DNA of 64,000 nt, taken from the NCBI RefSeq assembly GCF_017745095.1, contig NZ_JAGHZZ010000004.1:372001-436000 (forward strand), written 5' to 3'. Of this stretch, positions 31,990-50,100 are shown one piece after another. Below the pieces are notes generated by a model. That model saw only the letters and a program-made list of their open reading frames with translations, did not search any database and was not told where the DNA came from. Positions within the stretch are counted from its first letter, which is position 1. Every line of letters starts with the position of its first letter. Source of the stretch: Sporocytophaga sp. Its GTDB lineage: Bacteria; Bacteroidota; Bacteroidia; Cytophagales; Cytophagaceae. The position numbers were made by a program, and so were the translations under genes.

Positions 31990-33528
31990 ATGGTTACTAT
32001 TGGAGAAAAAAAGCTCGATTTGTCGGAAATTGAAAGAATATTGACGGGTAAAGAGCTTATTGAAATTCATACATCTATTGAAGAAAGAATAAGAAAAAAC
32101 CATGATTTTTTGAGCTATTTTTCAAAAGATAAACTGATATATGGAATCAATACTGGATTTGGGCCAATGGCTCAATATAGAATTGACGAAAAGGACCAGA
32201 TAGATCTTCAATACAACCTTATAAGAAGCCATTCTTCAGGTGTTGGAGCAGTATTGCCTGATATATACCTGAAAGCTGTTATGATAGCTAGGCTTAATTC
32301 ACTTTGCCAGGCATGTTCAGGTATTCCTAACAGTGTAGTTACCCTGTTGAAAGATTTGATTAATAACGAAATATATCCGGTTATATTTGAACATGGCGGT
32401 GTGGGAGCGAGCGGTGATCTTGTTCAGTTGGCTCATTTGGCCCTTGGCTTGATAGGAGAGGGAGAGGTTTCTTCAAAAAAACAGCTACGACCTGCTGCCG
32501 ACGTTTATAAAGAGTATAAAATTTCCCCTTTGAAGGTAAGTGGGAGAGAAGGCCTTGCCATTATGAATGGTACTTCATGTATGACAGGAATAGGATTGGT
32601 AAACCTAATCCAAGCTCAAAAGCTGGTAGATTGGAGTACCTATGCATCCTGTATGCTGAATGAGCTTGTTAATTCATATGATGACCATTTTTCTAATGAA
32701 TTAAATCAGGTAAAAAGGCACAGAGGCCAAAGAGAAATAGCCGAGTCGATGAGAAATATTCTTCACGACAGCAAGCTTACACGAAACAGGCAGAAAGAGC
32801 TTTATAAAAAGAAAGTAGAAGAGTATGTGCTAGAAGATAAGGTACAAGAGTACTATTCACTAAGATGCGTTCCTCAGATTCTGGGACCGATTAAAGACAC
32901 GATCACTTATGCAGAAGAAGTTTTAATAAATGAATTGAATTCTGCAAATGATAACCCGGTAATTGATTCAATTGCAGAAAACGTATTCCATGGAGGTAAT
33001 TTTCATGGGGATTACATTTCTCTAGAAATGGATAAATTAAAAATTGCTATCACGAAGCTTTCTATGCTTGCAGAAAGGCAATTGAATTACCTGATGAATA
33101 ATAAGCTGAACGGTAAAATTCCTCCATTTGCAAATCTTGGAAAGTTAGGCTTGAACTTTGGAATGCAAGGAGTACAGTTTACTGCAACTTCCACTACTGC
33201 AGAAAATCAGGTTTTAAGTAATCCAATGTATGTTCACAGTATTCCTAATAATAACGATAATCAGGATATTGTAAGCATGGGGACCAACTCAGCTTTACTT
33301 ACTAAAAAAGTCATTGAAAATACCTTTGAAGTATTATCAATCGAGATGATGTCCATTCTTCAGGGAATAGATTACCTGGGAATTTCTGACAAACTATCGG
33401 GCAAGACAAATAAGGTTTATAAAGCGTTAAGGGAAATTTTCCCAAGGTTTGAGAACGACCTTCCTAAATATGGTGATATTAAAAAAGTCAAACAGTATCT
33501 GATTGATAATAAGCCTGATAATGTTTGA
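31990..33528 (+). CDS. MIO-type aromatic amino acid ammonia-lyase (HAL/TAL family)
   Basis: A 512-residue lyase that uses an autocatalytic MIO group formed from Ala140-Ser141-Gly142 (GVGASGDLVQLAHLALG). It removes ammonia from an aromatic amino acid, most plausibly tyrosine to give 4-coumarate, the aryl starter of flexirubin-type pigments. Position as first gene of the pigment cluster and absence of hutU/hutI argue against histidine degradation. The selectivity loop reads RSHSSGVG (His81), closer to the Ser-His of histidine lyases than the His-Leu of the Rhodobacter tyrosine lyase, so the substrate is inferred from context. It is separated by 137 bases from the ketoreductase gene. Confidence 0.87.
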   Translation: MVTIGEKKLDLSEIERILTGKELIEIHTSIEERIRKNHDFLSYFSKDKLIYGINTGFGPMAQYRIDEKDQIDLQYNLIRSHSSGVGAVLPDIYLKAVMIARLNSLCQACSGIPNSVVTLLKDLINNEIYPVIFEHGGVGASGDLVQLAHLALGLIGEGEVSSKKQLRPAADVYKEYKISPLKVSGREGLAIMNGTSCMTGIGLVNLIQAQKLVDWSTYASCMLNELVNSYDDHFSNELNQVKRHRGQREIAESMRNILHDSKLTRNRQKELYKKKVEEYVLEDKVQEYYSLRCVPQILGPIKDTITYAEEVLINELNSANDNPVIDSIAENVFHGGNFHGDYISLEMDKLKIAITKLSMLAERQLNYLMNNKLNGKIPPFANLGKLGLNFGMQGVQFTATSTTAENQVLSNPMYVHSIPNNNDNQDIVSMGTNSALLTKKVIENTFEVLSIEMMSILQGIDYLGISDKLSGKTNKVYKALREIFPRFENDLPKYGDIKKVKQYLIDNKPDNV

Positions 33529-33665: not shown

Positions 33666-34394
33666 ATGAAATACGCTTTAGTTACAGGAGGTTCAAGAGG
33701 AATTGGAAGAGCTGTGTGTCTGAATCTCGCAGAGATGGGCTATAAAATTCTCATCAATTTTCAATCAAATGTTCAGGAAGCAGAAAAGACACTTGAACTA
33801 ATAAGAGAGAAGGGAAGTGATGGTGAACTAATGCAATTCAATGTTTCTAAAAAAGAAGAAGTTGAAGGTGTCTTGGGGAGCTGGCTCGAAAAAAATCCTG
33901 ATAAAGTAATAGAAATTTTAGTCAATAACGCTGGAATCAGAAAAGATAATCTTCTGATGTGGATGAGTGAAGAGGAGTGGCATGGTGTTCTTGATATTAG
34001 TCTTAACGGCTTTTTTTACATAACCAGACTGGTTGTGAAGGGAATGTTGGTTAATAAATATGGAAGAATTGTAAACGTTGTATCTCTATCAGGAATCAAG
34101 GGAATGCCGGGACAAACAAATTATTCTGCGAGCAAAGCAGCAATAATAGGAGCAACAAAAGCCTTGGCTCAGGAAGTTGGAAGAAGGGGAGTCACCGTCA
34201 ATGCTGTAGCGCCAGGCTTTATTGTAACAGATATGACAAAAGATATTAATGAAAAAGAATTTAAATCATTAATTCCTTTGGCCAGATTTGGAACTGCGGA
34301 GGAGGTTTCGAATGTTGTATCATTTTTAGCCTCAGACAAAGCATCATATATTACCGGAGAGGTAATATCTGTAAATGGAGGATTGTATACCTAG
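33666..34394 (+). CDS. 3-oxoacyl-ACP reductase (FabG/ApeQ-like)
   Basis: A 242-residue short-chain dehydrogenase that would reduce the 3-keto group during chain extension of the polyene. The NADPH-binding motif TGGSRGIGRA is at residues 7-16, NNAG at about residue 90, and the catalytic Ser...Tyr-x-x-x-Lys as SLSGIKGMPGQTNYSASKAA. The C-terminus has the usual NGG near the end. In this cluster it most likely fills the ApeQ role, acting on ACP-bound aryl intermediates, rather than being the housekeeping FabG. It is separated by 26 bases from the next ketosynthase gene. Confidence 0.9.
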   Translation: MKYALVTGGSRGIGRAVCLNLAEMGYKILINFQSNVQEAEKTLELIREKGSDGELMQFNVSKKEEVEGVLGSWLEKNPDKVIEILVNNAGIRKDNLLMWMSEEEWHGVLDISLNGFFYITRLVVKGMLVNKYGRIVNVVSLSGIKGMPGQTNYSASKAAIIGATKALAQEVGRRGVTVNAVAPGFIVTDMTKDINEKEFKSLIPLARFGTAEEVSNVVSFLASDKASYITGEVISVNGGLYT

Positions 34395-37870: not shown

Positions 37871-39007
37871 ATGAAGGAAGTATTTATAACAAGGGTTGCG
37901 AAATATTTGCCTAATAATCCGGTTTCAATTGATGAAATGGAGACTTATCTGGGATTTATTAATGGCAAACCTTCGAGAGCTAAGAAGATAGTATTAAGGA
38001 ATAATGGCATTAAAACACGATATTACGCGCTTTCCAAAGAGGGTAATATAACTCATAATAACGCTCAGCTGGCAGCGGAAGCTGTCAGATCTTTATTTGA
38101 CAGTTCTTTTAATCAGGATGATATAGAGCTGCTTGCTTGTGGTACCTCATATCCTGATCAAATTATGCCATCTCATGCAATTATGGTTCACGGATATTTG
38201 GGAGGGAGACCGATGGAAACTTTCTCTCCAATGGGAAACTGTTGTTCGGGGATGCATGCGCTAAAGATTGGCTTTATGTCTATCCAGGCAGAAAATACTT
38301 CTAATGCCGTGATCGTAGGGTCAGAACTTTGTTCACCTATGCTTCAGGCTAAAAATTATGAAGAGGAAGCAAAAAAGATCGGGGAAATGGAGGAAAACCC
38401 AATTCTCGCTTTTGAAAAAGATTTCCTGAGATGGATGCTTTCTGACGGGTCCGGCGCTTTTCTTTTGGAAGATAAACCTGCTGAAAAAGGTTTGTCACTT
38501 AAGATAGAATGGATAGACAGCATTTCTTTTGCAAATGAAGTAGAGACATGTATGTATGCTGCTTCTGACAAAGATGAAAATGGAAATCTCATAAGCTTCA
38601 AACAAATGGATCCTAAAGTAATTGCCGAGAACTCTGTAATGGCAATGAAACAAGATGTCAAATTGCTTGATCAGCATATTTCTCTTTTAGCAGCGAAGGC
38701 TCTAAAGGGAATCTGTAAGAAGAGAAATTTTGATGTTAAAGAAATCAAGTATGTACTTCCCCACCTTTCATCAGAGTTCTTCAGATTTAAGATTGCAGAA
38801 GAATTAATAAAGTATAATCTTGAGATTCCTCAGGAAAAGTGGTTTACAAATCTTACCAGTGTCGGAAATATCGGCGCGGCTTCAGTGTTTGTAATGGTAG
38901 AGGAAATTTTAAGTTCAGGGAAATTAAATATAGGCGATAAATTATTGCTGGCAGTTCCTGAAAGTGCACGGTTCTCATATTCGTATGCACTTCTAACTGT
39001 CTGTTAA
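37871..39007 (+). CDS. darB: DarB-like beta-ketoacyl synthase III
   Basis: A 378-residue KAS III-type enzyme that condenses two acyl units head to head into a cyclohexanedione, the precursor of dialkylresorcinol. The active-site Cys is in MGNCCSGMHA (Cys125 by alignment with FabH), the catalytic His in LPHLSSEFF, and the Asn in TSVGNIGAAS. It starts a tight run of + strand genes that continues to 42909. The upstream 165-base gap may hold a promoter. Confidence 0.86.
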   Translation: MKEVFITRVAKYLPNNPVSIDEMETYLGFINGKPSRAKKIVLRNNGIKTRYYALSKEGNITHNNAQLAAEAVRSLFDSSFNQDDIELLACGTSYPDQIMPSHAIMVHGYLGGRPMETFSPMGNCCSGMHALKIGFMSIQAENTSNAVIVGSELCSPMLQAKNYEEEAKKIGEMEENPILAFEKDFLRWMLSDGSGAFLLEDKPAEKGLSLKIEWIDSISFANEVETCMYAASDKDENGNLISFKQMDPKVIAENSVMAMKQDVKLLDQHISLLAAKALKGICKKRNFDVKEIKYVLPHLSSEFFRFKIAEELIKYNLEIPQEKWFTNLTSVGNIGAASVFVMVEEILSSGKLNIGDKLLLAVPESARFSYSYALLTVC

Positions 39008-39025: not shown

Positions 39026-39484
39026 ATGAATACCAATAGTCCAATTTACGAAGGCGATGTAGTTATTAACATGGTTCCTCAAAAAGAACCATTTGTAATG
39101 GTAGACAAGCTTTTGTTTTCTGATGATGTAAAAACTGTAAGCGGACTGACCTTGAAAGAGGATAATATTTTTTCTTATAACGGCTTTTTCAGAGAGCCTG
39201 GGCTAGTGGAAAACATGGCTCAGACGGCTGCCCTTCGCATGGGGTATGAAATTAATAGACAAAAATCTGACAATAACGGTGAGTTAAAAGGCGCTCCTGT
39301 AGGCTACATTGGAGCAATTAAAGGATTGAAGATTCATTCACTGCCTCCTGTCCATTCTGAGCTAGTGACTGAAGTGAGATTTGAAAATGAAGTAATGGGA
39401 GTCCTGCTTATTAAAGCATTTTGCACTTGCAACGGAAATGCAGTGGCTGAATGTGAAATGAAAATTTTCGTCAAAAAAGATTAA
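39026..39484 (+). CDS. ApeP-like hotdog dehydratase subunit without catalytic His
   Basis: A 152-residue FabZ-like hotdog protein. The central-helix acid is kept (Glu62 in PGLVENMAQ, matching Glu68 of FabZ). The segment that carries His54 in FabZ (GHFPG) is replaced by the shorter NGFFREPG, so the catalytic His is absent. The early PQKEPFVMVD corresponds to FabZ PHRFPFLLVD. Alone it should be inactive; it may pair with the protein encoded at 49732, which has the His but lacks the acid. Such ApeI-ApeP pairs are reported for aryl polyene synthases. It would help to install trans double bonds. Confidence 0.8.
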   Translation: MNTNSPIYEGDVVINMVPQKEPFVMVDKLLFSDDVKTVSGLTLKEDNIFSYNGFFREPGLVENMAQTAALRMGYEINRQKSDNNGELKGAPVGYIGAIKGLKIHSLPPVHSELVTEVRFENEVMGVLLIKAFCTCNGNAVAECEMKIFVKKD

Positions 39485-39492
39485 TAGCTTTT

Positions 39493-39885
39493 ATGGAAAA
39501 AGATCAGGTTCCTCAAGATCATGGTGTCCTGGAAGGCGTCAGGAAGGTTATATATGCAACTGATAAAAATGGCACTTATACTAAAGTAAAGACTGCTGGT
39601 TGGGAACCTGAAAATGTCGCTCTGGATCAAGCCTGGGAAGTAATCAATGAAAAGGTTGAAGCTGCCAGACAAAAAGTATTGGCAGGTAAAGCCAGTCCAT
39701 TGCTTTTTCATCTTGAAAAAAATATGATCACCAAAGGTATGCTTGCAGAACTAAGCGGCATTTCGTGGTTCAAAATTATCTGGCATTTGCGTCCTTCCGC
39801 ATTTGCAAAGTTGAACCAGAAGACCCTTGAAAAATATGCTCGTGCTTTGAATATTTCTGTGGCACAACTAAAAAAAACTGAATAA
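39493..39885 (+). CDS. Small protein with HTH-like C-terminus
   Basis: A 130-residue protein; I do not recognise a named function. Residues 1-70 are polar with a YTKVKTAGWEPEN segment. Residues about 78-126 resemble the helices of an XRE-type helix-turn-helix (LAELSGISWFKIIWHLRP ... TLEKYARALNISVAQL), though the usual recognition-helix pattern is changed. It might be a local regulator or a structural protein of the pathway. It lies 8 bases after the hotdog gene and 2 bases before the BtrH-like gene, so it is surely co-transcribed. Confidence 0.6.
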   Translation: MEKDQVPQDHGVLEGVRKVIYATDKNGTYTKVKTAGWEPENVALDQAWEVINEKVEAARQKVLAGKASPLLFHLEKNMITKGMLAELSGISWFKIIWHLRPSAFAKLNQKTLEKYARALNISVAQLKKTE

Positions 39886-39887
39886 CC

Positions 39888-40889
39888 TTGGAAGTGCAAT
39901 TTGAACATAATCAGAGTGCGCACTGTGAAAATGGCGCAGTATCTAATCTATTGAAGTTTCATAACCTTGGAATTTCTGAACCAATGGTTTTTGGTATAGG
40001 TTCAGGTCTGTTTTTTAGCTACCTGCCATTTGTTAAACTAAATGGATTACCTGTTACATCCTACAGAATACTTCCAGGATGGATATTTAAAAGGGTAAGC
40101 TCCCGGCTTGGGATTTCAATTCACTCTACAACTTTCAGAAGTGAAACAAAAGCAATGGAAGAGCTGGATCGTACATTGGAAAAAGGCTTGCCTGTTGGGT
40201 TATTGACAAGTGTGTTTTACCTTCCTTATTTACCTAAAGCTTTAAGATTTCATTTCAACGCTCATAATATTGTTGTTTTTGGAAAAAGAAACGGAAAATA
40301 CCTTGTGAGTGATCCTATCCTTGAAGAAACTTGTGAAATAGACTATGATGATTTGGTGAGAGCCAGATTCGCCAAAGGGACAATGCCTCCGAAAGGAAAG
40401 ATGTATTACCCAACTGTAGTGCCAACTTCATTTGATTTTAAACCCGCTATAGTGAAAGGAATCAAGCAGACAGCAGGCGATATGCTGAATGTACCTATTC
40501 CACTTTTTGGCGTAAAGGGAATCAGATTTCTGGCTAAAAGCCTGAAAAAATGGCCGGATAAACTTGATGAAAGAAGAGCTATTTTATACCTGGGTCAGGT
40601 AATAAGGATGCAGGAAGAAATCGGAACCGGAGGCGGAGGGTTTAGATTTATATTTGGGGCGTTTCTTCAGGAAGCATCTAATCACCTTCAGCAGCCATGG
40701 CTTCAGGAAGTAGCTCAGGAAGTTACTGAAACCGGAGACAGATGGAGAGATTTTGCATTTGAGGCGGGAAGAATCTGTAAAGGAAGAGCTTCTTCCGCAG
40801 TATCTTATAAAACATTATCAGATATATTACTGGAATGCGCAGATCGTGAGAAGGCAATATTTACCAAACTGAAAAAAATTACCTTATAA
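39888..40889 (+). CDS. BtrH-like N-terminal domain protein (possible acyltransferase)
   Basis: A 333-residue protein starting at a TTG; this start is needed to keep the motif HCENGAVSNLL with Cys13. The first 150 residues match the BtrH N-terminal type, a papain-like fold with a likely triad of Cys13, His126 (HNIVVFG) and Asp142 (VSDP). BtrH in butirosin synthesis moves an acyl group from a carrier protein to an amine. A comparable transfer in pigment assembly is possible here but is inference. The C-terminal half is helical and of unknown role. ABC transporter genes follow. Confidence 0.75.
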   Translation: MEVQFEHNQSAHCENGAVSNLLKFHNLGISEPMVFGIGSGLFFSYLPFVKLNGLPVTSYRILPGWIFKRVSSRLGISIHSTTFRSETKAMEELDRTLEKGLPVGLLTSVFYLPYLPKALRFHFNAHNIVVFGKRNGKYLVSDPILEETCEIDYDDLVRARFAKGTMPPKGKMYYPTVVPTSFDFKPAIVKGIKQTAGDMLNVPIPLFGVKGIRFLAKSLKKWPDKLDERRAILYLGQVIRMQEEIGTGGGGFRFIFGAFLQEASNHLQQPWLQEVAQEVTETGDRWRDFAFEAGRICKGRASSAVSYKTLSDILLECADREKAIFTKLKKITL

Positions 40890-40892
40890 AAA

Positions 40893-41630
40893 GTGGTTCA
40901 GGTAAATAATCTTTTCAAAACCTATAAAAAGGGATTTGCTCCTGCGCTCTCGGGGGTAAATCTGACAATTCAAAAGGGCGATTTTTTTGGATTACTTGGT
41001 CCTAATGGAGCAGGAAAAACAACTTTGATTTCCATTATCTGTGGATTATCACCTGCTAATATCGGCACAGCTTATATGAATGAAACCGATATTTTAAGAT
41101 ATCCAGAGAAAATAAAAAAATACTATGGCCTGGTTCCGCAAGACATAGCTTTGTATCCTTCACTGACTGCGGAAGAAAATCTACGTTTCTTTGGTCGCAT
41201 GTATGGCATACCTGGAAATACTATTAAAAGTGAAGTCGATTTTTGGCTTCCTAAAATGGGGCTGTCGAATCACCGTCACAAAAAAATAAACGAGTACTCT
41301 ACAGGCATGAAGAGACGGGTGAATCTTATTGCCGGTATCCTTCATAAGCCTTCCATCATAATTCTTGATGAGCCTACAGTAGGCGTCGATGTTCAATCCA
41401 GAGTGCTTATTTTGGAAACATTAAAAGAAATTAACAGCAAGGGAACTACTGTAATTTATACAAGTCACTACCTGGAAGAAGCCGAAGATCTTTGTAACAG
41501 AATTGCTATCATCGACAAAGGAAGAATCATTAAAGAAGGAGAGCCAGCTCAACTGATAGCTCAGGAAAATCCATGTTCTAATTTGGAAGACCTGTTTATT
41601 AAACTTACAGGAAAGGAATTAAGAGATTAG
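40893..41630 (+). CDS. ABC transporter ATP-binding protein (ABC-2 type)
   Basis: A 245-residue ATPase that starts at GTG. Walker A is GPNGAGKTTL, the signature motif is YSTGMKRRVN, and Walker B is IIILDEPTVGVD, followed by the switch His in YTSHYLEEAE. It pairs with the permease gene starting one base after its stop. The two could move the finished pigment or a precursor across the inner membrane, or could be an exporter for lipid-like molecules. The substrate is inferred from cluster membership. Confidence 0.92.
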   Translation: MVQVNNLFKTYKKGFAPALSGVNLTIQKGDFFGLLGPNGAGKTTLISIICGLSPANIGTAYMNETDILRYPEKIKKYYGLVPQDIALYPSLTAEENLRFFGRMYGIPGNTIKSEVDFWLPKMGLSNHRHKKINEYSTGMKRRVNLIAGILHKPSIIILDEPTVGVDVQSRVLILETLKEINSKGTTVIYTSHYLEEAEDLCNRIAIIDKGRIIKEGEPAQLIAQENPCSNLEDLFIKLTGKELRD

Positions 41631-41631
41631 C

Positions 41632-42909
41632 ATGAGAGTTTTCTTTGCCATTTATAAGGAACTTTTGATCCTGATCCGAGACAAGGCTGGTTTGGCAATC
41701 TTGTTTCTGATGCCTTTAACAATGATCATCATCATGGCATTGATTCAGGATGGTCCTTTCAGAGATTATCAGCAGGCTGAAATAAAGGTTATATTCTTAG
41801 ATCAGGATGGAGATGAATGCGGAAAGGCAATATCACAAGGTCTGAACCAGGCAGGGATATTTAAAATAACACAGGCGGAATATTCAAAATACGATTTAAA
41901 CAATATCAGGGAAGAAGTAAATAAAGGAACTTATAAAGTTGGAGTAGTAGTTCCTCCCGGTACTTCTCTGATGCTTCAAACTCATATAAGCAGAGACATC
42001 AGCAGGGCTTTTGGTGAGCTTACCAATGGTCCGTCTGAAGATATCAAGGATTCTCTGCATGCAGCCATTCAGGTAATTTATGATCCTGCATTACAAGCTT
42101 CATTCAAAAAGTCGGTGCAACTGGCTTTGGATAAAATTCTTGATGGATATCAGGCTAGCCAGTCTATAAAGGTCATCTCACAACATTTATCACAGTATTT
42201 TCCTAATGGGAATCAGTTTAATATAGATACCAGAAGGTTTATACAATTAGATCAGAAAACTGCGGTACCTGAATTACAAGGCCTGTCTCTGAATTCCGTT
42301 CAGCATAATGTTCCAGCCTGGACTATTTTTGGTATTTTCTTTATCGTTCTTCCATTGGCTGGCAGCATCATTAAAGAAAGGGAAGATGGTAGCACCTTAA
42401 GGTTAAGAACGATTCCAGGAACTTCTTTAGTTGTAATGATTGGGAAAGTTCTGGCTTACTTATTAATTACGCTTGCACAGTTTGTACTGATGATGTTGGC
42501 AGGAATTTTCTTAATGCCACATCTTGGATTACCTGCCCTAGAAATAGGTGGAAATCTTTCAGCACTTTTGCTGGCAGTAGTGTCTATAGGGCTGGCAGCT
42601 ACAGGGTTAGGCGTATTACTTGGTACCGTATTTAAAACTCATCAGCAATCTTCCACATTTGCAGCCGTTTCTATTGTAATCCTTGCAGCGATAGGAGGAA
42701 TCTGGATACCGGTTTTTGTAATGCCGGAAATATTGAGAAAAATGAGTGTCATATCTCCCCTGGGATGGAGTATGGAAACTTTCAATAACCTATTTCTTAG
42801 AGGAGCAGGGGTGGAGGAAATATTGCCTGAAATTTCAGCATTAACCGGTTTTTTTGGAGCAATGCTAATTATGGCCTATTTTTATAATAAATTTAAAGTC
42901 AGAAGTTAA
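41632..42909 (+). CDS. ABC-2 type transporter permease
   Basis: A 425-residue membrane protein: one N-terminal helix (about 18-38), an extracytoplasmic domain of about 190 residues, then five or so helices from about 225 to the end, the standard ABC-2 layout. The segment EREDGSTLRLRTIPGTSL between helices is a typical coupling region. It works with the preceding ATPase. Position within the cluster suggests transport of pigment intermediates, which is unproven. Confidence 0.9.
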   Translation: MRVFFAIYKELLILIRDKAGLAILFLMPLTMIIIMALIQDGPFRDYQQAEIKVIFLDQDGDECGKAISQGLNQAGIFKITQAEYSKYDLNNIREEVNKGTYKVGVVVPPGTSLMLQTHISRDISRAFGELTNGPSEDIKDSLHAAIQVIYDPALQASFKKSVQLALDKILDGYQASQSIKVISQHLSQYFPNGNQFNIDTRRFIQLDQKTAVPELQGLSLNSVQHNVPAWTIFGIFFIVLPLAGSIIKEREDGSTLRLRTIPGTSLVVMIGKVLAYLLITLAQFVLMMLAGIFLMPHLGLPALEIGGNLSALLLAVVSIGLAATGLGVLLGTVFKTHQQSSTFAAVSIVILAAIGGIWIPVFVMPEILRKMSVISPLGWSMETFNNLFLRGAGVEEILPEISALTGFFGAMLIMAYFYNKFKVRS

Positions 42910-42960
42910 TGAAGACTAGGCTTTATAATTAAAAAGAATTCGGATTTTAATAAATAAGAG

Positions 42961-43398
42961 TTGGAAACAAATTTACTAGTTGCCAGAACAGAGATAAAAG
43001 TCAGGTTTTGTGAGGTGGATGCGATGGGTATTGTCTGGCATGGAAATTACCTCAAATTTTTTGAAGATGGCAGGGATGCATTCGGGAAGGAATTTGACCT
43101 CGATTTTGTTGAATTGTACAGTTCACAGGGGTATTTAACTCCTCTTGTAACAGCAAACTGCGATTATAAAAGGCCTCTAAGACTTCAGGAGAAAGCAATT
43201 GTAGAGACTACATTTGTTCCAACAGAAGCTGCAAAAATCATATTTGATTATAAAATCTACAGGGATACTTCAAGGGGACGGGAACTTCTTACGACAGGAA
43301 AAACCATTCAGGTTTTTCTAAAAGATGGGGAACTTTCAATAACAAATCCGGATTGCTATCAGCAGTGGAAAGAAAAGTGGCTTTATAAAAAAGGATGA
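42961..43398 (+). CDS. YbgC/4-hydroxybenzoyl-CoA-type thioesterase
   Basis: A 145-residue hotdog thioesterase with a TTG start. The active-site signature is FCEVDAMGIVWHGNYLKFFE, with the Asp of the YbgC/4-HBT family in the VDAMG part. It probably releases an acyl group from an ACP or CoA thioester, a function matched by ApeK-like thioesterases in aryl polyene clusters. Its stop overlaps the next ketosynthase start (ATGA), giving tight coupling. Confidence 0.85.
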   Translation: METNLLVARTEIKVRFCEVDAMGIVWHGNYLKFFEDGRDAFGKEFDLDFVELYSSQGYLTPLVTANCDYKRPLRLQEKAIVETTFVPTEAAKIIFDYKIYRDTSRGRELLTTGKTIQVFLKDGELSITNPDCYQQWKEKWLYKKG

Positions 43399-44540
43399 AA
43401 TCAGTTTTTTTAATATCGGATAATGTTATCACCTCCCTAGGGTTTAATACCGGGGAAAATGCTGCAAAAATGAGGGAAAGATGCTCCGGAGTATTGCTTT
43501 CGGAAGATCATTTTATTTCCCCTACTCCATTTTATGCATCATTGGTGAAGACTCCTATATTAGAAGAATCTTTCGGCAGGTTAAATTCAAAAGAAGGGTA
43601 TACAAGACTTGAGAAAATGATTATCACAAGTATTTCGGATGCTCTGAATAAAACTAAAATTGATCCGGCATCTAATGATACTTTATTTATCATTTCCACT
43701 GCCAAAGGAAATATAGATCTTCTGGAAAATAAATATAAAGAGAGAGTCCCCAAAGAACGTTTAAAGCTGGCTGTAATGGCCAGAGTTATAAGTTCTTTTT
43801 TCAAAAATCCTAACCAGCCACTTGTGATATCCAATGCTTGTATATCTGGCTCTGTGGCAATACTGTTAGGGAAGAGAATTTTAAATGAGGGTAAATATAG
43901 AAATGTAATTGTAGCTGGAGGTGATGTTATTTCTGAATTTACAGTATCAGGTTTTCAGTCTTTTAAAGCGATTGGAAGTGGACCTTGCAAGCCATATGAT
44001 GAAGGCAGGGATGGGATAAGCCTGGGAGAGGGTGCAGGAACTGTTATTCTTTCTGTTGAGCCGGAAAACAACACTTCTATTGCGGTAATAGGTGGAGCGA
44101 TCACCAACGATGCCAACCATATTTCTGGTCCTTCGAGAACAGGAGAAGGTTTGTTTCTTGCAATAGATGGGGCTTTAAAAGATGCCTCAATTTGTGCAGA
44201 AGAGATTGATTATATATCTGGGCACGGCACTGCTACAAATTATAATGATGAAATGGAGTCTAAGGCAATTCATTCTGCCAAACTGGAACTAGTGCCGATG
44301 AACAGTTTGAAAGGATATATTGGACATACGCTTGGAGCGGCTGGTATAGCAGAATCTGTTATGGCAGCTTATTCCATGAAAAATAATATTCTGTTTGCAA
44401 CAGCAGGTTTTTCCAAAATGGGAGTTACCCAGCCCGTAAATGTACTGAGTGATTGCATAGAGAAGAAGGTCAATAGAGTTTTAAAAACAGCTGCCGGTTT
44501 CGGAGGATGTAATGCAGCGTTGATTTTTGAGAAACAATGA
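43395..44540 (+). CDS. FabF-type beta-ketoacyl-ACP synthase, second copy
   Basis: A 381-residue condensing enzyme with Cys149 in ISNACISGSVAIL, His in SGHGTATNYNDE, and the second His in KGYIGHTLGAAGIAE; all catalytic residues are present. It overlaps the thioesterase before it and the half-ketosynthase after it by 4 bases each. It probably corresponds to one of the two ketosynthases (ApeO or ApeR types) of aryl polyene synthesis; which one cannot be settled by eye. Confidence 0.88.
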   Translation: MKSVFLISDNVITSLGFNTGENAAKMRERCSGVLLSEDHFISPTPFYASLVKTPILEESFGRLNSKEGYTRLEKMIITSISDALNKTKIDPASNDTLFIISTAKGNIDLLENKYKERVPKERLKLAVMARVISSFFKNPNQPLVISNACISGSVAILLGKRILNEGKYRNVIVAGGDVISEFTVSGFQSFKAIGSGPCKPYDEGRDGISLGEGAGTVILSVEPENNTSIAVIGGAITNDANHISGPSRTGEGLFLAIDGALKDASICAEEIDYISGHGTATNYNDEMESKAIHSAKLELVPMNSLKGYIGHTLGAAGIAESVMAAYSMKNNILFATAGFSKMGVTQPVNVLSDCIEKKVNRVLKTAAGFGGCNAALIFEKQ

Positions 44541-45169
44541 GCAGTATAGGTTTTATAAAATCATATTCGATCATAAGAAATAATCAGGCCATTTTGAATG
44601 GTGAAGAATTTCTTAAAGGGGCTCCGGAAGATGACTTTGCTACCTTTATAAGAAGTCTTTATAAAAAGCTTGAAATAACGCATTCCCCATTTTACAAAAT
44701 GGATGATATGTGCAAGCTTGGATTAATGGCAACCGAGTTGATTCTAAAAGACTCTGCGATCAAAGAAAAATATACTGATACGGAGATTGGTGTGGTACTT
44801 TCGAACTCCAGTTCGAGTTTGCATACTGATGCTTCTTATTATGAAACAGTTAAGGATAAAAGTAATTACTTTCCAAGTCCTGCTGTGTTTGTTTATACTT
44901 TGCCAAATATAGTTATCGGGGAAATTTGTATCAGAAATAAGATAAAAGGTGAAAATACTTTTTTTATTTTTGAAGAATATAATCCTGAGTTTATTACAGA
45001 TTATGTTAATAACCTCTTCTCTTCGGGAAAATTAAAATCCTGTATTGCCGGTTGGGTAGAGTTTTGTGAAGGCAAATATGAGGCCTTTTTATATCTTGCT
45101 GAAGCGGCTCAAGCAGAGAACTTGATAACTCATACAGCAGAACAAATTAAAAAAATATATAATTTTTAA
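44537..45169 (+). CDS. Ketosynthase N-lobe-like protein without catalytic Cys
   Basis: A 210-residue protein resembling only the first half of a FabF-type enzyme: IGVVLSNSSSSLHTDASYYE and PNIVIGEICIRNKIKGEN align with the region before the active site. The position of the Cys falls in FFIFEEYNPEF, so no nucleophile is present, and the C-terminal lobe with the two His is missing. The frame is intact and both ends are tightly packed against neighbours, so it does not look like a decaying fragment. It may stabilise or measure chain length with the adjoining ketosynthase. Confidence 0.72.
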   Translation: MSSIGFIKSYSIIRNNQAILNGEEFLKGAPEDDFATFIRSLYKKLEITHSPFYKMDDMCKLGLMATELILKDSAIKEKYTDTEIGVVLSNSSSSLHTDASYYETVKDKSNYFPSPAVFVYTLPNIVIGEICIRNKIKGENTFFIFEEYNPEFITDYVNNLFSSGKLKSCIAGWVEFCEGKYEAFLYLAEAAQAENLITHTAEQIKKIYNF

Positions 45170-45178
45170 GTTTTTATT

Positions 45179-45436
45179 ATGGAAGATTTAGTAAACCAAT
45201 TAAAGGTTCAAATTATAAAGGCCCTTAAGCTGGAAGATGTAAAACCTGAAGATATCAATCCTACAGCTCCTTTGTTTGGAGACGGACTTGGTCTTGACAG
45301 TATAGATGCTCTTGAGCTTATCGTTCTTCTTGAGAAGGAATATGGTTTAAGAGTAGAAAATGCAGCTTCAGCTAAAAAGATATTTTCATCGATCAAGTCG
45401 ATGGCAGACTATATTGCAGAGCATAAAAAAGCATAA
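45179..45436 (+). CDS. Acyl carrier protein, second copy
   Basis: An 85-residue ACP with phosphopantetheine site Ser41 in LGLDSIDALELIVLLE. It lies between the half-ketosynthase and the third full ketosynthase, and probably carries the aryl polyene chain. The sequence differs enough from the first ACP to suggest a separate role. The genes on either side are 9 and 6 bases away. Confidence 0.93.
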   Translation: MEDLVNQLKVQIIKALKLEDVKPEDINPTAPLFGDGLGLDSIDALELIVLLEKEYGLRVENAASAKKIFSSIKSMADYIAEHKKA

Positions 45437-45442
45437 TCAGGA

Positions 45443-46651
45443 ATGAGTAAAAAGGTTGTCATTACCGGTCTTGGAGTTATCTCTTCCATTGGAAACAATG
45501 TACAGGAGAACTATAACTCATTGACTTCTTTAAGGCCTGGTATAGGGCATATTCAAAACCTTGATACTGTTCATAAAAATATCATTCCTGTTTCGGAAGT
45601 AAAGCTTTCCGATAAGGATCTTGGTCAAATGGCCGGATTTGATATGAATCGGCCAGTGACAAGAACTACTTTGTTAGGAATCATTGCTGCAAGAGAAGCA
45701 TATCTTGCCGCTGGCCTGGATAAAGTTGCAAAACTCAGGACGGGTTTTATATCAGCGACTTCTGTCGGTGGAATGGGCAAGACTGAAATGCTTTATCAGA
45801 GATATCTTGATCCTGCGGACAAGGGAGATTTTATGAAATTTCTGGAAACCCATGACTGCGGGGAAAGCACTGAAAGAATCGCTGAGGCATTGGGAATTAA
45901 AGACTTCATGACGACAATTAGCACTGCATGTTCCTCTTCTGCCAATTCTATCATGCTTGGCGCAAGAATGATCAAGGCAGGAATGATTGACAGAGTTGTG
46001 GCTGGAGGCGTTGATTCCCTTACAGTATTTACCATCAATGGTTTCAATACATTGATGATTTTGGATAAAGAGCATTGCAGACCGTTTGATGATAGCAGAC
46101 AAGGCTTAAATCTCGGAGAAGGGGCAGGCTACATTGTGATAGAGTCTGAAGAAGCAGCAAAAGCCGGAAATAGACCTATTCTAGCTGAAGTTGGAGGATA
46201 TGCCAATACCAATGATGCTTATCACCAGACTGCAAGCTCTCCTGACGGACAAGGAGCTTTCCTTGCTATGAAAAAGGCTCTTGAAGTGGCTGGATTGACA
46301 GCTGAGGAAATTGACTATATCAATGTTCATGGTACTGGAACTCCAAATAACGACTTATCTGAGGGAACGGCGATGACAAGACTGTTTGGCAATCAAGTTC
46401 CGAAATTCAGTTCCACAAAATCATATACAGGCCATACTCTGGGAGCATGTGGTGGTATTGAGGCTGTTTATTCTACGTTATCAATTATGAATAAAACCAT
46501 CTTCCCAAATCTTAATTTTAAGGCGAAGATGAAAGAGCTGGACCTTGCTCCTGAAACTTCATTACTATCAGGTGTAGATATCAAAAGTGTACTTTCCAAT
46601 TCATTTGGTTTTGGAGGGAATAACTCAGCTCTTGTTTTTAAGAAGATTTAA
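45443..46651 (+). CDS. FabF-type beta-ketoacyl-ACP synthase, third copy
   Basis: A 402-residue condensing enzyme with Cys163 in ISTACSSSANSIM, His in NVHGTGTPNNDLSEG, and His in TKSYTGHTLGACGGIE. All catalytic residues are intact. The next gene, only 3 bases away, encodes a Cys-less partner, an arrangement like the KS-CLF pair ApeO-ApeC of aryl polyene synthesis. It is therefore the best candidate for the main chain-extending ketosynthase. Confidence 0.9.
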   Translation: MSKKVVITGLGVISSIGNNVQENYNSLTSLRPGIGHIQNLDTVHKNIIPVSEVKLSDKDLGQMAGFDMNRPVTRTTLLGIIAAREAYLAAGLDKVAKLRTGFISATSVGGMGKTEMLYQRYLDPADKGDFMKFLETHDCGESTERIAEALGIKDFMTTISTACSSSANSIMLGARMIKAGMIDRVVAGGVDSLTVFTINGFNTLMILDKEHCRPFDDSRQGLNLGEGAGYIVIESEEAAKAGNRPILAEVGGYANTNDAYHQTASSPDGQGAFLAMKKALEVAGLTAEEIDYINVHGTGTPNNDLSEGTAMTRLFGNQVPKFSSTKSYTGHTLGACGGIEAVYSTLSIMNKTIFPNLNFKAKMKELDLAPETSLLSGVDIKSVLSNSFGFGGNNSALVFKKI

Positions 46652-46654
46652 ATT

Positions 46655-47707
46655 ATGCAGATTTATATTAATGGTCTTGGTAATGTCTCTCCCCAGAATA
46701 CTCTGGACAATTCCTCTTTTCTGGAAGAGATAAAATATCATCAGGACTATTTCAAAGTGGTAGAACCAAATTATAAGGAGTTTATATCCCCTGCTGCTGC
46801 ACGAAGAATGGGAAAGGTTATAAAAATGGGTGTCGCTGCTGCTAACTATTGTCTTAGAGATGCAAAGGTTGAAAATCCTGATGCAATCATTACAGGTACT
46901 GGTATGGGCTGCCTTGAGGACACTGAGAATTTTCTTTGTAATATCCTTAATAATAAAGAACAGTTTTTAACCCCAACCTCATTTATCCAGTCTACTCACA
47001 ATACTGTTGGGGCTCAGATTGCATTGCTGCTTACCTGCAATAATTATAACTTCACCTATGTTCACAGAGACCTTTCTTTCGAAAGTGCTTTTGTGGATTC
47101 TATACTTCTGCTAAAAGAAGGCGAAGCTTCTAACGTCCTGTTAGGCGGGGTGGATGAAATTACACCTAACCATTATTCTATTCATGCCAAAAAAGGTTTG
47201 TGGAAGACTGGGGCTCAGACTTCTGAGTTTTTTAATAAAAATTCTGACGGGACGATTCCTGGAGAAGGAGCTACATTCTTTTCACTCTCTTCAAGCCCAA
47301 AGGATCCTTATGCAACTGTGCTGGCAGTAGAAATGCTGTTTAATACAAATAGCAAGGAAGATCTAAAAAAGGTTCTGGACAGAATTCTTTCTTCTAACAA
47401 CATACAATCTAAAGATATTGATCTGATATTGTTAGGTGCTAATGGAGATAAGGAAGGGGATAGAGTATATTCAGAATTTAAAGAAAACTTCTTTAAAGAA
47501 AATAATTCAGCTGCCTTCAAAAATCTTTGTGGTGAATATTCAACATCTTCTGCGTTTGGAGTTTGGTTGGCTTCCCAGATACTAAAGAAAAAAGAAATTC
47601 CTACATGTGTTTCTGTGAGTCGCACTCCTGACAAGGAAGTGAATAAGATTCTTTTGTATAATCATTACTGCGGAAATCATTCCCTCATATTACTATCCTC
47701 ATGTTGA
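46655..47707 (+). CDS. Chain-length-factor-like ketosynthase without catalytic residues
   Basis: A 350-residue thiolase-fold protein. It follows the FabF pattern (AARRMGKVIKMGVAAANYCL, PTSFIQSTHNTVGAQIALLL, LLGGVDEITP), but the active-site Cys is replaced (HRDLSFESAFVDS) and the first catalytic His position reads LLGANGDKEGD. It would act as chain-length factor for the preceding ketosynthase, by analogy with ApeC. Its end overlaps the next gene by 7 bases. Confidence 0.82.
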   Translation: MQIYINGLGNVSPQNTLDNSSFLEEIKYHQDYFKVVEPNYKEFISPAAARRMGKVIKMGVAAANYCLRDAKVENPDAIITGTGMGCLEDTENFLCNILNNKEQFLTPTSFIQSTHNTVGAQIALLLTCNNYNFTYVHRDLSFESAFVDSILLLKEGEASNVLLGGVDEITPNHYSIHAKKGLWKTGAQTSEFFNKNSDGTIPGEGATFFSLSSSPKDPYATVLAVEMLFNTNSKEDLKKVLDRILSSNNIQSKDIDLILLGANGDKEGDRVYSEFKENFFKENNSAAFKNLCGEYSTSSAFGVWLASQILKKKEIPTCVSVSRTPDKEVNKILLYNHYCGNHSLILLSSC

Positions 47708-48480
47708 GGTTTAAACTTGTCAGCACATTATTTTTTATAATTTCGGCACTGCTCCTTTATCTGGCGATCGAAAAAGGTTTTTCTTTTTGGTGGCTGGTAC
47801 TTTCAGTATTAGCTTATTCTGGAGTGGTATTTTATGGAGTAACCTATTTGAGTGCAGGCTTTTTTGTAAAAGCTGTTTGTGCCGGTCCTGACATTAAGAA
47901 GGAATTATGCATAACCTTTGATGATGGACCCCATCCTGAAATAACCCCGAGAATATTACAAATTTTAAAAGAGCATTCTGTCCCCGCAGCATTTTTTGTT
48001 ATTGGAAAAAATATCGAGGGGAATGAAGCTTTATTGAAAAAAACATATCAGGAGGGGCACATAGTCGGAAATCATACTTTTAATCATTCTTTCTGGTTTG
48101 ACCTGAAATCACCTTCAGGCATGAAAGTTGAATTGAAGCAAACCGATGATAAGGTGAAGGAAGTTTTGGGAAAATATCCGTTGTATTTCAGGCCGCCATA
48201 TGGGGTAACAAATCCTCCTTTGTATAAGGCGCTTAGAAATTCAAGATATTCTGTAATTGGTTGGAATGTTCGTTCCTTTGATACTGTTGTAATGGATAAA
48301 AACAGTTTACTTGATAAACTGAAAAAAGCTCTGAAACCAGGAGCTATCTATTTGTTTCACGATACAAACGACAGGACTGTTGAGATATTAGAATCATTTA
48401 TTCTTTATGCAAAGGAAAATGGCTATTCTTTTGTATCAATTGAGAAGTTTGTAAATAAAGATGCATATGCTGTTAATTAA
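47701..48480 (+). CDS. Polysaccharide deacetylase family (NodB-type) protein
   Basis: A 259-residue protein with two N-terminal membrane helices (about 5-22 and 27-45) and a NodB domain. Metal and catalytic residues are visible: TFDDGPHPE (Asp74, Asp75) and GNHTFNH (His125, His129), plus RPPYG. The active site looks complete. It would remove acetyl or other N/O-acyl groups at the membrane. Why a deacetylase lies in a pigment cluster is unclear; it may process a glycolipid acceptor. It overlaps the next gene by 20 bases. Confidence 0.88.
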   Translation: MLRFKLVSTLFFIISALLLYLAIEKGFSFWWLVLSVLAYSGVVFYGVTYLSAGFFVKAVCAGPDIKKELCITFDDGPHPEITPRILQILKEHSVPAAFFVIGKNIEGNEALLKKTYQEGHIVGNHTFNHSFWFDLKSPSGMKVELKQTDDKVKEVLGKYPLYFRPPYGVTNPPLYKALRNSRYSVIGWNVRSFDTVVMDKNSLLDKLKKALKPGAIYLFHDTNDRTVEILESFILYAKENGYSFVSIEKFVNKDAYAVN

Positions 48481-49114
48481 GAAATTCGGATTTATTCTTT
48501 CACTTATTTTTGGTCTTACCACAATTGCTTTTAGTCAGCACCCTGGTTTTGGTCCGCTTACAGATTCGGTTTCATTTAAGAATAATCTTTCAAAAACTGC
48601 GAAAGAAACCAAGACCATTCAAAGTGATTTTGTTCAGGAGAAAAACTTGAGTGTACTTGCAGAGAAAATTATTACCAAAGGCAGTTTCATGTTTAAGAAG
48701 GACAACATGCTGAGATGGCAGTATACAGATCCGTTTCAGTATTTGATTATCATGAATAAAAATAAAGTCTATATCAAAGACGACTCAAGGGAAAATAAGT
48801 ACGACATGCAGTCAAACAAAATGTTCCAGGAGATCAACAACATGATTGTCAATAGTGTACAGGGGAATGTATTGAACAGCAAAGATTATAAAATCAAGTA
48901 CTATCAGAATGAAAAGTATTATCTGGTAGACCTTACTCCTCTGAATAAGAATATGAAAGGGTTTTTAAAAAGCATCAGTTTATATTTTGATAAAAAGGAT
49001 TTTACAGTTTCCAAACTGACAATGACTGAGCCATCAGGAGATTATACCAATATCGCTTTCACTAATAAAAAAGTAAATGCCGAAATTCCGGATGAGAAGT
49101 TTCATATTAAGTAG
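48461..49114 (+). CDS. LolA-like periplasmic carrier protein
   Basis: A 217-residue periplasmic protein with a signal peptide (ending near IAFSQ). The mature part resembles LolA: TIQSDFVQEKNLSVLAEKI, then GSFMFKKDNMLRWQYTDPFQY and a series of beta strands. LolA-like proteins occur in aryl polyene clusters and are thought to carry the hydrophobic pigment through the periplasm. A second ATG at 48467 would shorten the signal by two residues. The following lipoprotein gene overlaps its 3' end. Confidence 0.85.
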   Translation: MHMLLIKKFGFILSLIFGLTTIAFSQHPGFGPLTDSVSFKNNLSKTAKETKTIQSDFVQEKNLSVLAEKIITKGSFMFKKDNMLRWQYTDPFQYLIIMNKNKVYIKDDSRENKYDMQSNKMFQEINNMIVNSVQGNVLNSKDYKIKYYQNEKYYLVDLTPLNKNMKGFLKSISLYFDKKDFTVSKLTMTEPSGDYTNIAFTNKKVNAEIPDEKFHIK

Positions 49115-49730
49115 TATTCTGATTGTTTTGCTTTTCTCTTGTAAGGGCTCTAAAACAGCTGTTACTGGAGAAGAAAGAAGACCACTGAAGTCAGATGAGC
49201 TGATATCGCTATTTAAAAGTGATAGTGGAGCTTTTGTATATAAAACTGCCGTAGATGTCTATGGTCATTACCTTAGCGGATTGTTAATTATAAAAAACAC
49301 AGAACCGGATAAGTACAGACTTGTATTTACAACAGAAGTAGGTGTCAAACTTTTTGATTTTGAGCTCGGCCCCTCTGATTTTTTTAAGGTACACTACTGC
49401 ATTGACCAAATGAATAAAAAGGTTGTAATTAACCTTCTTAGGGACGATTTTAGGCTGTTGCTTATGAATCCATTAATTGCTTCAGAAGCAGTTGTTTCAA
49501 AAGATAGCACGCATGTAATTTACAGGCTCAGAGGAAAGAAGGAAGAAAATGCCTATTTTTACAAACTTGATGACGGCAAGTTGTCAAAAATAATGACGAC
49601 TTACGGAAAGAAGTCCAAGACAAAGGTGGAGATTTTATTCACTGATTATTCAGGTGAAGTACCTTCCAATATTCTGCTAGATCATCAGAATATTAAGTTG
49701 ACAATTAAGATGAGTCTTTTGAAAAGATAA
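49092..49730 (+). CDS. Lipoprotein partner of the LolA-like carrier
   Basis: About 212 residues from the ATG at 49092 (a second candidate ATG is at 49077), with a lipobox LLFSC. The mature part is beta-rich: GHYLSGLLIIKNTEPDKYRL and a VGVKLFDFELGP strand, in the style of LolB- or DUF3261-type lipoproteins that accompany LolA homologues in aryl polyene clusters. It is probably outer-membrane anchored and may receive cargo from the carrier. Start overlaps the upstream gene by 23 bases. Family assignment is tentative. Confidence 0.6.
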   Translation: MRSFILSSILIVLLFSCKGSKTAVTGEERRPLKSDELISLFKSDSGAFVYKTAVDVYGHYLSGLLIIKNTEPDKYRLVFTTEVGVKLFDFELGPSDFFKVHYCIDQMNKKVVINLLRDDFRLLLMNPLIASEAVVSKDSTHVIYRLRGKKEENAYFYKLDDGKLSKIMTTYGKKSKTKVEILFTDYSGEVPSNILLDHQNIKLTIKMSLLKR

Positions 49731-49731
49731 T

Positions 49732-50100
49732 ATGTTACAAGAGAATAATTTCTATAAAGTACAAACAGTAGAGCCGATCGCAGAAGGCTCTTTAAAAGTC
49801 AGAGTGGAACTGAACGAAAAGCATAAAATATTTGAAGGGCATTTCCCGGGAAATCCTGTTGTGCCGGGAGTATGCATGGTGCAGATGATTAAAGAAATGC
49901 TTTCTTCAGCTTTAGAAAAAGAACTGATTCTGGTTACAGGCGATAATCTGAAGTTTATGAATATTGTAAATCCGAAGGTTAATAAATTCCTTGATTTCGA
50001 TATCAATTATAAGCATCAGGATGATTCTGTTATCAAAGTGAATAATACCATATTTTTTGAAGATAAAGTATTCTTTAAGTTTAGCGGAACCTTCAGATAA
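49732..50100 (+). CDS. ApeI-like hotdog dehydratase subunit without catalytic acid
   Basis: A 122-residue FabZ/FabA-like hotdog protein. His37 lies in FEGHFPGNPVVPG, equivalent to His54 of FabZ, but 14 residues later, where FabZ has Glu68, there is Gln51 (VCMVQMIKE). It therefore keeps the half of the active site that the protein at 39026 has lost. In hotdog dimers the His and acid come from opposite subunits, so a heterodimer of the two would restore one full site. Such ApeI-ApeP dehydratases are reported for aryl polyenes. Confidence 0.82.
   Translation: MLQENNFYKVQTVEPIAEGSLKVRVELNEKHKIFEGHFPGNPVVPGVCMVQMIKEMLSSALEKELILVTGDNLKFMNIVNPKVNKFLDFDINYKHQDDSVIKVNNTIFFEDKVFFKFSGTFR

Follow-up and report, generated by a model that had tools for sequence, protein, structure and literature searches.

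The gene cluster analyzed here lies in a 64,000-nucleotide stretch of DNA from Sporocytophaga sp. (assembly GCF_017745095.1, contig NZ_JAGHZZ010000004.1, positions 372,001 to 436,000, forward strand; called the window below), and it raises the question of whether two hotdog proteins that each hold only half of a dehydratase active site make up one enzyme. The cluster is of the flexirubin (aryl polyene) type, and the genes of both proteins, starting at positions 39026 and 49732, are inside it. In all likelihood, the two proteins are the subunits of a single beta-hydroxyacyl-acyl carrier protein (ACP) dehydratase of flexirubin polyene synthesis, like the proteobacterial ApeI/ApeP, and, judging from their sequences, very probably neither works without the other.

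When the 39026 protein (ApeP-like) was aligned with FabZ, Glu62 matched the FabZ acid and Gln66 matched the FabZ Gln four residues on, while the column of the FabZ His was a gap and the loop was shortened. The open reading frame (ORF) and the alignment thus agreed with an earlier interpretation of the DNA letters (the sequence-only reading), which had this protein keep the acid and lack the GHFPG His. The same reading was correct for the 49732 protein (ApeI-like), which carries His37 within FEGHFPG and has Gln51 at the FabZ acid position, exactly 14 residues further on. Alignment with FabZ and with ApeI/ApeP restored neither a His in the first protein nor an acid at Gln51. A candidate alignment with a His in the ApeP-like protein was rejected, its only His residues being 104 and 110, and Glu55 of the ApeI-like protein, 18 residues after His37 and one helical turn past Gln51, was considered as a replacement acid and set aside, as discussed below. 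Neither protein, therefore, has His and acid on the same chain as FabZ/FabA homodimers do, whereas all of the ordinary FabZ controls that we read had both His and Glu (42/42; 15 frames picked by a GHF or GNF motif and 27 picked by profile and read by eye). In AlphaFold monomers predicted from the family alignments, with mean predicted local distance difference test scores of 93.0 for the ApeP-like protein and 94.0 for the ApeI-like protein, helix 57-83 has Glu62 and helix 46-61 has Gln51 at the same depth, five residues in; because of these matching helix positions, the two residues appear to be structurally equivalent.

The absence of the catalytic His was a general property of ApeP. Its column was a gap in all rows of a 140-row alignment, and in one proteobacterial alignment 14/64 ApeP had another letter there, never His. 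Some ApeP relatives (37/124) had a His within the 22 residues before the Glu, at scattered places, and 89/124 rows had the His of the LPH motif of proteobacterial ApeP. The latter corresponds to the LPHR His of FabZ, which we take to be non-catalytic, and is Gln in the window's protein. A solved structure was also compared, PDB entry 6QSR, presumably the X. doucetiae ApeI:ApeP complex. Chain A is ApeI-like, with His and Asp, and chain B is ApeP-like, with Glu and no aligned His; in our own reading of the alignment, the LPG within its GHLPGW falls at the second PG of FabZ.

Relatives were collected from samples of 395 Bacteroidota and 398 Pseudomonadota genomes and from a relatives search of 39 genomes (G000 included). 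The Pseudomonadota search, with a profile of four enterobacterial ApeI, matched 100 rows in 96/398 genomes; the 65 strongest rows (L082 among them) plus L094 made up the 66 proteobacterial ApeI, and the 35 weakest rows (41.8 bits or less) stayed outside the totals of 115 ApeI. All of these weak rows but G612 were read later and represented 7 ApeI and 27 FabZ. Eight weak extra ApeI matches in Bacteroidota (E 3.4e-7 to 9.4e-6), two of which read as FabZ, were likewise excluded from the counts.

Across both phyla, the His at the GHF position was present in 115/115 ApeI, and the ApeP proteins had Glu in 140/140, Gln four residues on in 140/140 and the FabZ His in 0/140, with ExxAQ and loss of the GHFPG loop in all 140. 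Within the ApeP family alignment of 29 rows, Glu62, Ala65 and Gln66 were invariant. The acid of ApeI behaved differently: only 52/115 ApeI had one at the acid position, and a tree of the 115 rows, built with the acid position and position +4 left out, needed at least 12 changes between acid and non-acid (13 on a separate 102-row tree). No Asp or Glu occurred at either position in 17/115 ApeI, a state that changed at least nine times. In the 36 ApeI of the Bacteroidota survey (His in 36/36), the acid position was Gln in 34 and Glu in 2, and all 60 ApeP rows from the same survey (36 first and 24 second copies) had Glu and Gln and none had the His. The relatives search added 13 ApeI, all with the His and with Gln (7), Tyr (4), Leu (1) or Glu (1) at the acid position. 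The 66 proteobacterial ApeI (His in 66/66) had Asp (43), His (11), Glu (6), Gln (3), Gly (2) or Asn (1), and 64/64 proteobacterial ApeP had Glu and Gln. The seven later proteobacterial ApeI, read by eye, also kept the His (7/7), with H, Q, H, H, D, K and A at the acid position, and six later ApeP all kept the Glu (6/6). Two of the later ApeI, L243 and L245, were divergent: they have PA replacing PG, and their acid position is Lys or Ala.

Judged from this conservation, one half-site, the ApeI His with the ApeP Glu, is strictly selected, and the reverse half-site, the ApeI acid with the absent His, is not. This is the pattern predicted by a single composite active site, and working homodimers of either protein are hard to reconcile with it. 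The composite site proposed in the sequence-only reading is thus strongly favored by the conservation, but the strict complementarity that went with it does not extend to the whole family, as 6QSR chain A has Asp and 49/66 proteobacterial ApeI have Asp or Glu.

The two proteins also occurred together. The ApeP-like protein was found in 36/395 Bacteroidota genomes and a match to the ApeI-like protein in 44, with all 36 among the 44. Since 36/36 ApeP-bearing Bacteroidota also had ApeI, with the same division of residues (2/36 ApeI with Glu), the division is not due to chance. In the relatives search, ApeP was present in 15 genomes and ApeI in 14, all of which had ApeP. Similarly, 64/66 proteobacterial ApeI had ApeP in the same stretch, the other two genomes carried it elsewhere, and 6/7 of the later ApeI had it in their stretch. 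The two window genes are approximately 10.2 kb apart on the same strand, and the earlier suggestion that the division persists despite such separation held for genes as close as 21 bases and as far apart as 19 kb, and in 2/36 genomes with the genes on different contigs. In 24/36 Bacteroidota genomes (for example, L028, L025 and L014), a second acid-only ApeP gene was located close beside the first, and each of these genomes had only one ApeI at E 1e-5, which suggests that one His subunit may serve two acid subunits. The window's genome has a single ApeP.

As we infer the pairing, His37 of the ApeI-like protein would meet Glu62 of the ApeP-like protein at the heterodimer interface and form the only working site, in which Gln66 would hold Glu62. 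The mirror-image site would be dead: its His disappeared together with the ApeP loop, and in this lineage Gln51 stands in place of its acid. The 3-hydroxyacyl-ACP supplied by the ketosynthase and ketoreductase of the cluster would be dehydrated at the working site, so that every cycle would add one conjugated double bond. The heterodimer of ApeI and ApeP, on which the sequence-only reading relied, had already been described in print as a dehydratase with a single active site (PMC8041823).

The homology of the pair to ApeI/ApeP was examined by profile comparison. The ApeP set (29/60 Bacteroidota rows used) was nearer proteobacterial ApeP (20/64 rows; E 5.1e-21) than FabZ (14/15 rows; E 3.3e-16), and in a quick tree of 60 ApeP and 15 FabZ a 99% branch separated the two. 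The ApeI set (21/36 Bacteroidota rows) was nearer proteobacterial ApeI (24/66 rows; E 1.2e-15) than FabZ (14/15 rows; E 4.1e-13), by a modest margin; the Pfam family PKS_DH_N matched 7/21 Bacteroidota ApeI at E 0.1 (best 7e-5). That the two proteins are homologous to chains A and B of 6QSR supports the predicted pairing.

Several observations weigh against a single ApeI/ApeP-like enzyme. Both window proteins fall below the cutoffs of the Pfam ApeI-like and ApeP-like families: the ApeI-like protein scored 15.8 bits against a cutoff of 28.5 for PF22818 (219.5 for a Xenorhabdus ApeI as a control), the ApeP-like protein had no match to PF22817 at E 0.1, and 1/29 Bacteroidota ApeP rows matched that family (best E 0.048). 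In a search of the PDB with the Bacteroidota ApeP profile, FabZ entries (best 5.5e-12) outscored 6QSR chain B (2.1e-5). The predicted structures cover monomers only, and the ApeI tree is a quick one with many forks unresolved, making its change counts approximate. One genome, G804 (69% complete), had ApeP and no ApeI that we could find, and L245 had no ApeP in its 6.7-kb stretch. The main loose end is the conserved Glu55, which the pairing leaves unexplained. Glu was found at this position in 34/36 ApeI of the Bacteroidota survey, giving the order QxxxE in place of the ExxxQ of FabZ. In proteobacterial ApeI, an acid at +4 went with loss of the acid at the usual position (5/17 ApeI lacking that acid versus 0/49 carrying it; Fisher p 0.0007, the rows not being independent of one another). 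This association is a hint that an acid on this helix has some function.

These two patterns could mean that the ApeI-like protein is a self-sufficient homodimeric dehydratase with Glu55 as its acid and the ApeP-like protein a structural or substrate-binding partner. We consider this very unlikely. It would leave no need for the invariant ApeP Glu, and the monomer models have Gln51, not Glu55, at the helix place equal to Glu62. Furthermore, the ApeI that are acid-free at both positions include those of L219, L220, L221 and L222, four genomes from a single genus of the window's own family; these have Tyr at the acid position and Phe at +4 but have kept the ApeI His, while their ApeP keep ENMAQ. 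In the paired enzyme, Glu55 may instead serve the dead second site or help to hold the partner. A tentative extension is that the Bacteroidota split is obligate and modular: the sole His-only subunit would donate its base to two tandem acid-only partners, so that three half-enzymes would yield two dehydratases, which might differ in the chain lengths they act on, and the dead second site would have been reshaped around the reversed QxxxE pair to do something else, such as hold the partner. We regard this as possible but doubtful.

About as unlikely as catalysis through Glu55 are separate functions, in which one of the proteins would be a dehydratase with some other partner and the second would be a hotdog enzyme of a different, non-dehydratase kind. 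A hotdog protein can indeed retain the His and have another activity, as described for the decarboxylating AmcE of cispentacin synthesis (PMC10698177), and the window encodes a thioesterase-like hotdog protein. However, ApeI and ApeP co-occurred with two gaps only, both window proteins are homologous to two chains of one solved entry, and no other window ORF of at least 70 amino acids matched either protein at E 1e-3. It is hardly credible that neither protein is a dehydratase and that both are relics, the pigment pathway being served by the one ordinary FabZ of the genome (found at E 1e-20 within a 468-amino-acid frame, as in LpxC-FabZ fusions), because the strict conservation of the ApeI His and of the ApeP Glu and Gln over two phyla is unlike that of relics, and no in-frame stop was present in the Bacteroidota matches listed and one (G612) among the 100 proteobacterial rows.

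The assignment of the cluster to the flexirubin type follows from the presence of DarB, the ammonia-lyase and the LolB2 of flexirubin clusters (Table 1); the role of FlxA has been described (PMC3992019). The full ketosynthase is followed by a ketosynthase-like protein that resembles the N-terminal half of a ketosynthase, and we propose the two (43395 to 45169) as a ketosynthase/chain length factor pair. The latter role would fit the length of the protein, since an aryl polyene chain length factor of 211 residues is mentioned in PMC12664062; a sequence search of solved structures with the 210-residue protein gave no match at E 0.01. A further ketosynthase-like protein of 350 amino acids is encoded at 46655-47707, in which a search for active-site Cys motifs found none. 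Between the two dehydratase halves (39888-42909) are a BtrH_N/DUF4872 protein and two ORFs that, judged by eye, resemble an ATP-binding cassette transporter ATPase and permease.

Table 1. Features of the flexirubin-type cluster in window coordinates
Feature	Position	Strand	Evidence
Aromatic amino acid ammonia-lyase, FlxA-like	31990..33528	+	Pfam PF00221, 534.8 bits
Ketoreductase	33666-34394		
Carrier-protein-like ORFs (two)	starts 35662 and 45179		Read from sequence
DarB (dialkylresorcinol biosynthesis), flexirubin-type marker	37871..39007	+	NCBIfam NF053539, 574.8 bits (cutoff 550)
ApeP/FlxF-like hotdog protein, 152 aa, acid-only half (Glu62 and Gln66, GHFPG loop lost)	39026..39484	+	
Codon of Glu62, predicted catalytic acid	39209..39211	+	Glu in 140/140 ApeP rows
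Thioesterase-like hotdog protein	42961-43398		
Ketosynthase with active-site Cys motif	43395-44540	+	
Ketosynthase-like protein, 210 aa, without active-site Cys motif	44537-45169	+	
LolB2 of flexirubin clusters, immediately upstream of ApeI	49077..49730	+	NCBIfam NF053540, 164.5 bits (cutoff 60)
ApeI/FlxS-like hotdog protein, 122 aa, stand-alone, His-only half	49732..50100	+	
Codon of His37, predicted catalytic base	49840..49842	+	His in 115/115 ApeI rows
Codon of Gln51, replacing the FabZ acid	49882..49884	+	Gln in 34/36 Bacteroidota ApeI

The principle of a heterodimeric, single-site ApeI/ApeP dehydratase is known, and what is new is that relatives in two phyla reveal which of the halves matter. 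Natural variation by itself is enough to tell the selected half-site of the aryl polyene dehydratase from the other one. On the tree, the ApeI acid changed state 12 times or more while the His and the partner Glu were both kept, so this acid is expected to be dispensable in the solved structure as well, where it is present. In the literature that we searched, we found no description of a Bacteroidota form that mostly lacks the ApeI acid and falls below the Pfam cutoffs, of FlxF and FlxS as one enzyme, or of a pair of acid-only ApeP genes next to a single His-only ApeI (as in 24/36 genomes here). In E. coli, most core-gene deletions in the cluster abolished pigment, and the exceptions named in the text available from that study do not include apeI or apeP (PMC8253772).

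Among the profiles compared, ApeI/ApeP (PF22818 and PF22817) were the best match to the window's pair. Both systems have a His subunit and an acid subunit without the His loop, with one predicted working site, in a polyene-forming type II polyketide synthase cluster. They differ in the ApeI acid, which is Asp or Glu in 6QSR chain A and the 49 proteobacterial proteins mentioned above and mostly Gln in Bacteroidota, with Glu four residues on. As the Bacteroidota pair is nearer ApeI/ApeP by profile but below the Pfam cutoffs, and as the PDB search ranked FabZ first, we describe it as a diverged homologue that probably works like ApeI/ApeP and not as a curated member. A named counterpart is the flexirubin cluster of Chitinophaga pinensis, which, like the window's cluster, has an ammonia-lyase, ketosynthases, a deacetylase, LolA, a glycosyltransferase and an exporter (PMC3992019). 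That paper says no more of the two proteins than "a dehydratase (FlxF, FlxS)", and the words heterodimer and active site are absent from its main text. Our results suggest that FlxF and FlxS are one enzyme; the 39026 and 49732 proteins would be FlxF and FlxS by name, an assignment drawn from the published descriptions and not from the C. pinensis sequences. FabZ and FabA share with the pair the hotdog fold, the GHFPG His, the acid and Gln on the central helix and a site shared between two subunits, and each active site of FabA is described as taking residues from different subunits (PMC2698920). In contrast to the pair, FabZ has His and acid on each chain and two sites per dimer. HadAB of mycobacteria is likewise described as a heterodimeric hotdog dehydratase with a single site, but there both catalytic residues are on HadB, and HadA gives the substrate channel (PMC4491049). 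For MaoC, general scans gave no Pfam or NCBIfam match to either protein, the Asp-His dyad motif itself not having been searched for. In the dehydratase domain of type I polyketide synthases, a double hotdog, the His is on one half and the acid on the other within a single chain, whereas here the halves are encoded by two genes 10 kb apart; the pair would thus be a natural two-gene counterpart of that double-hotdog domain.

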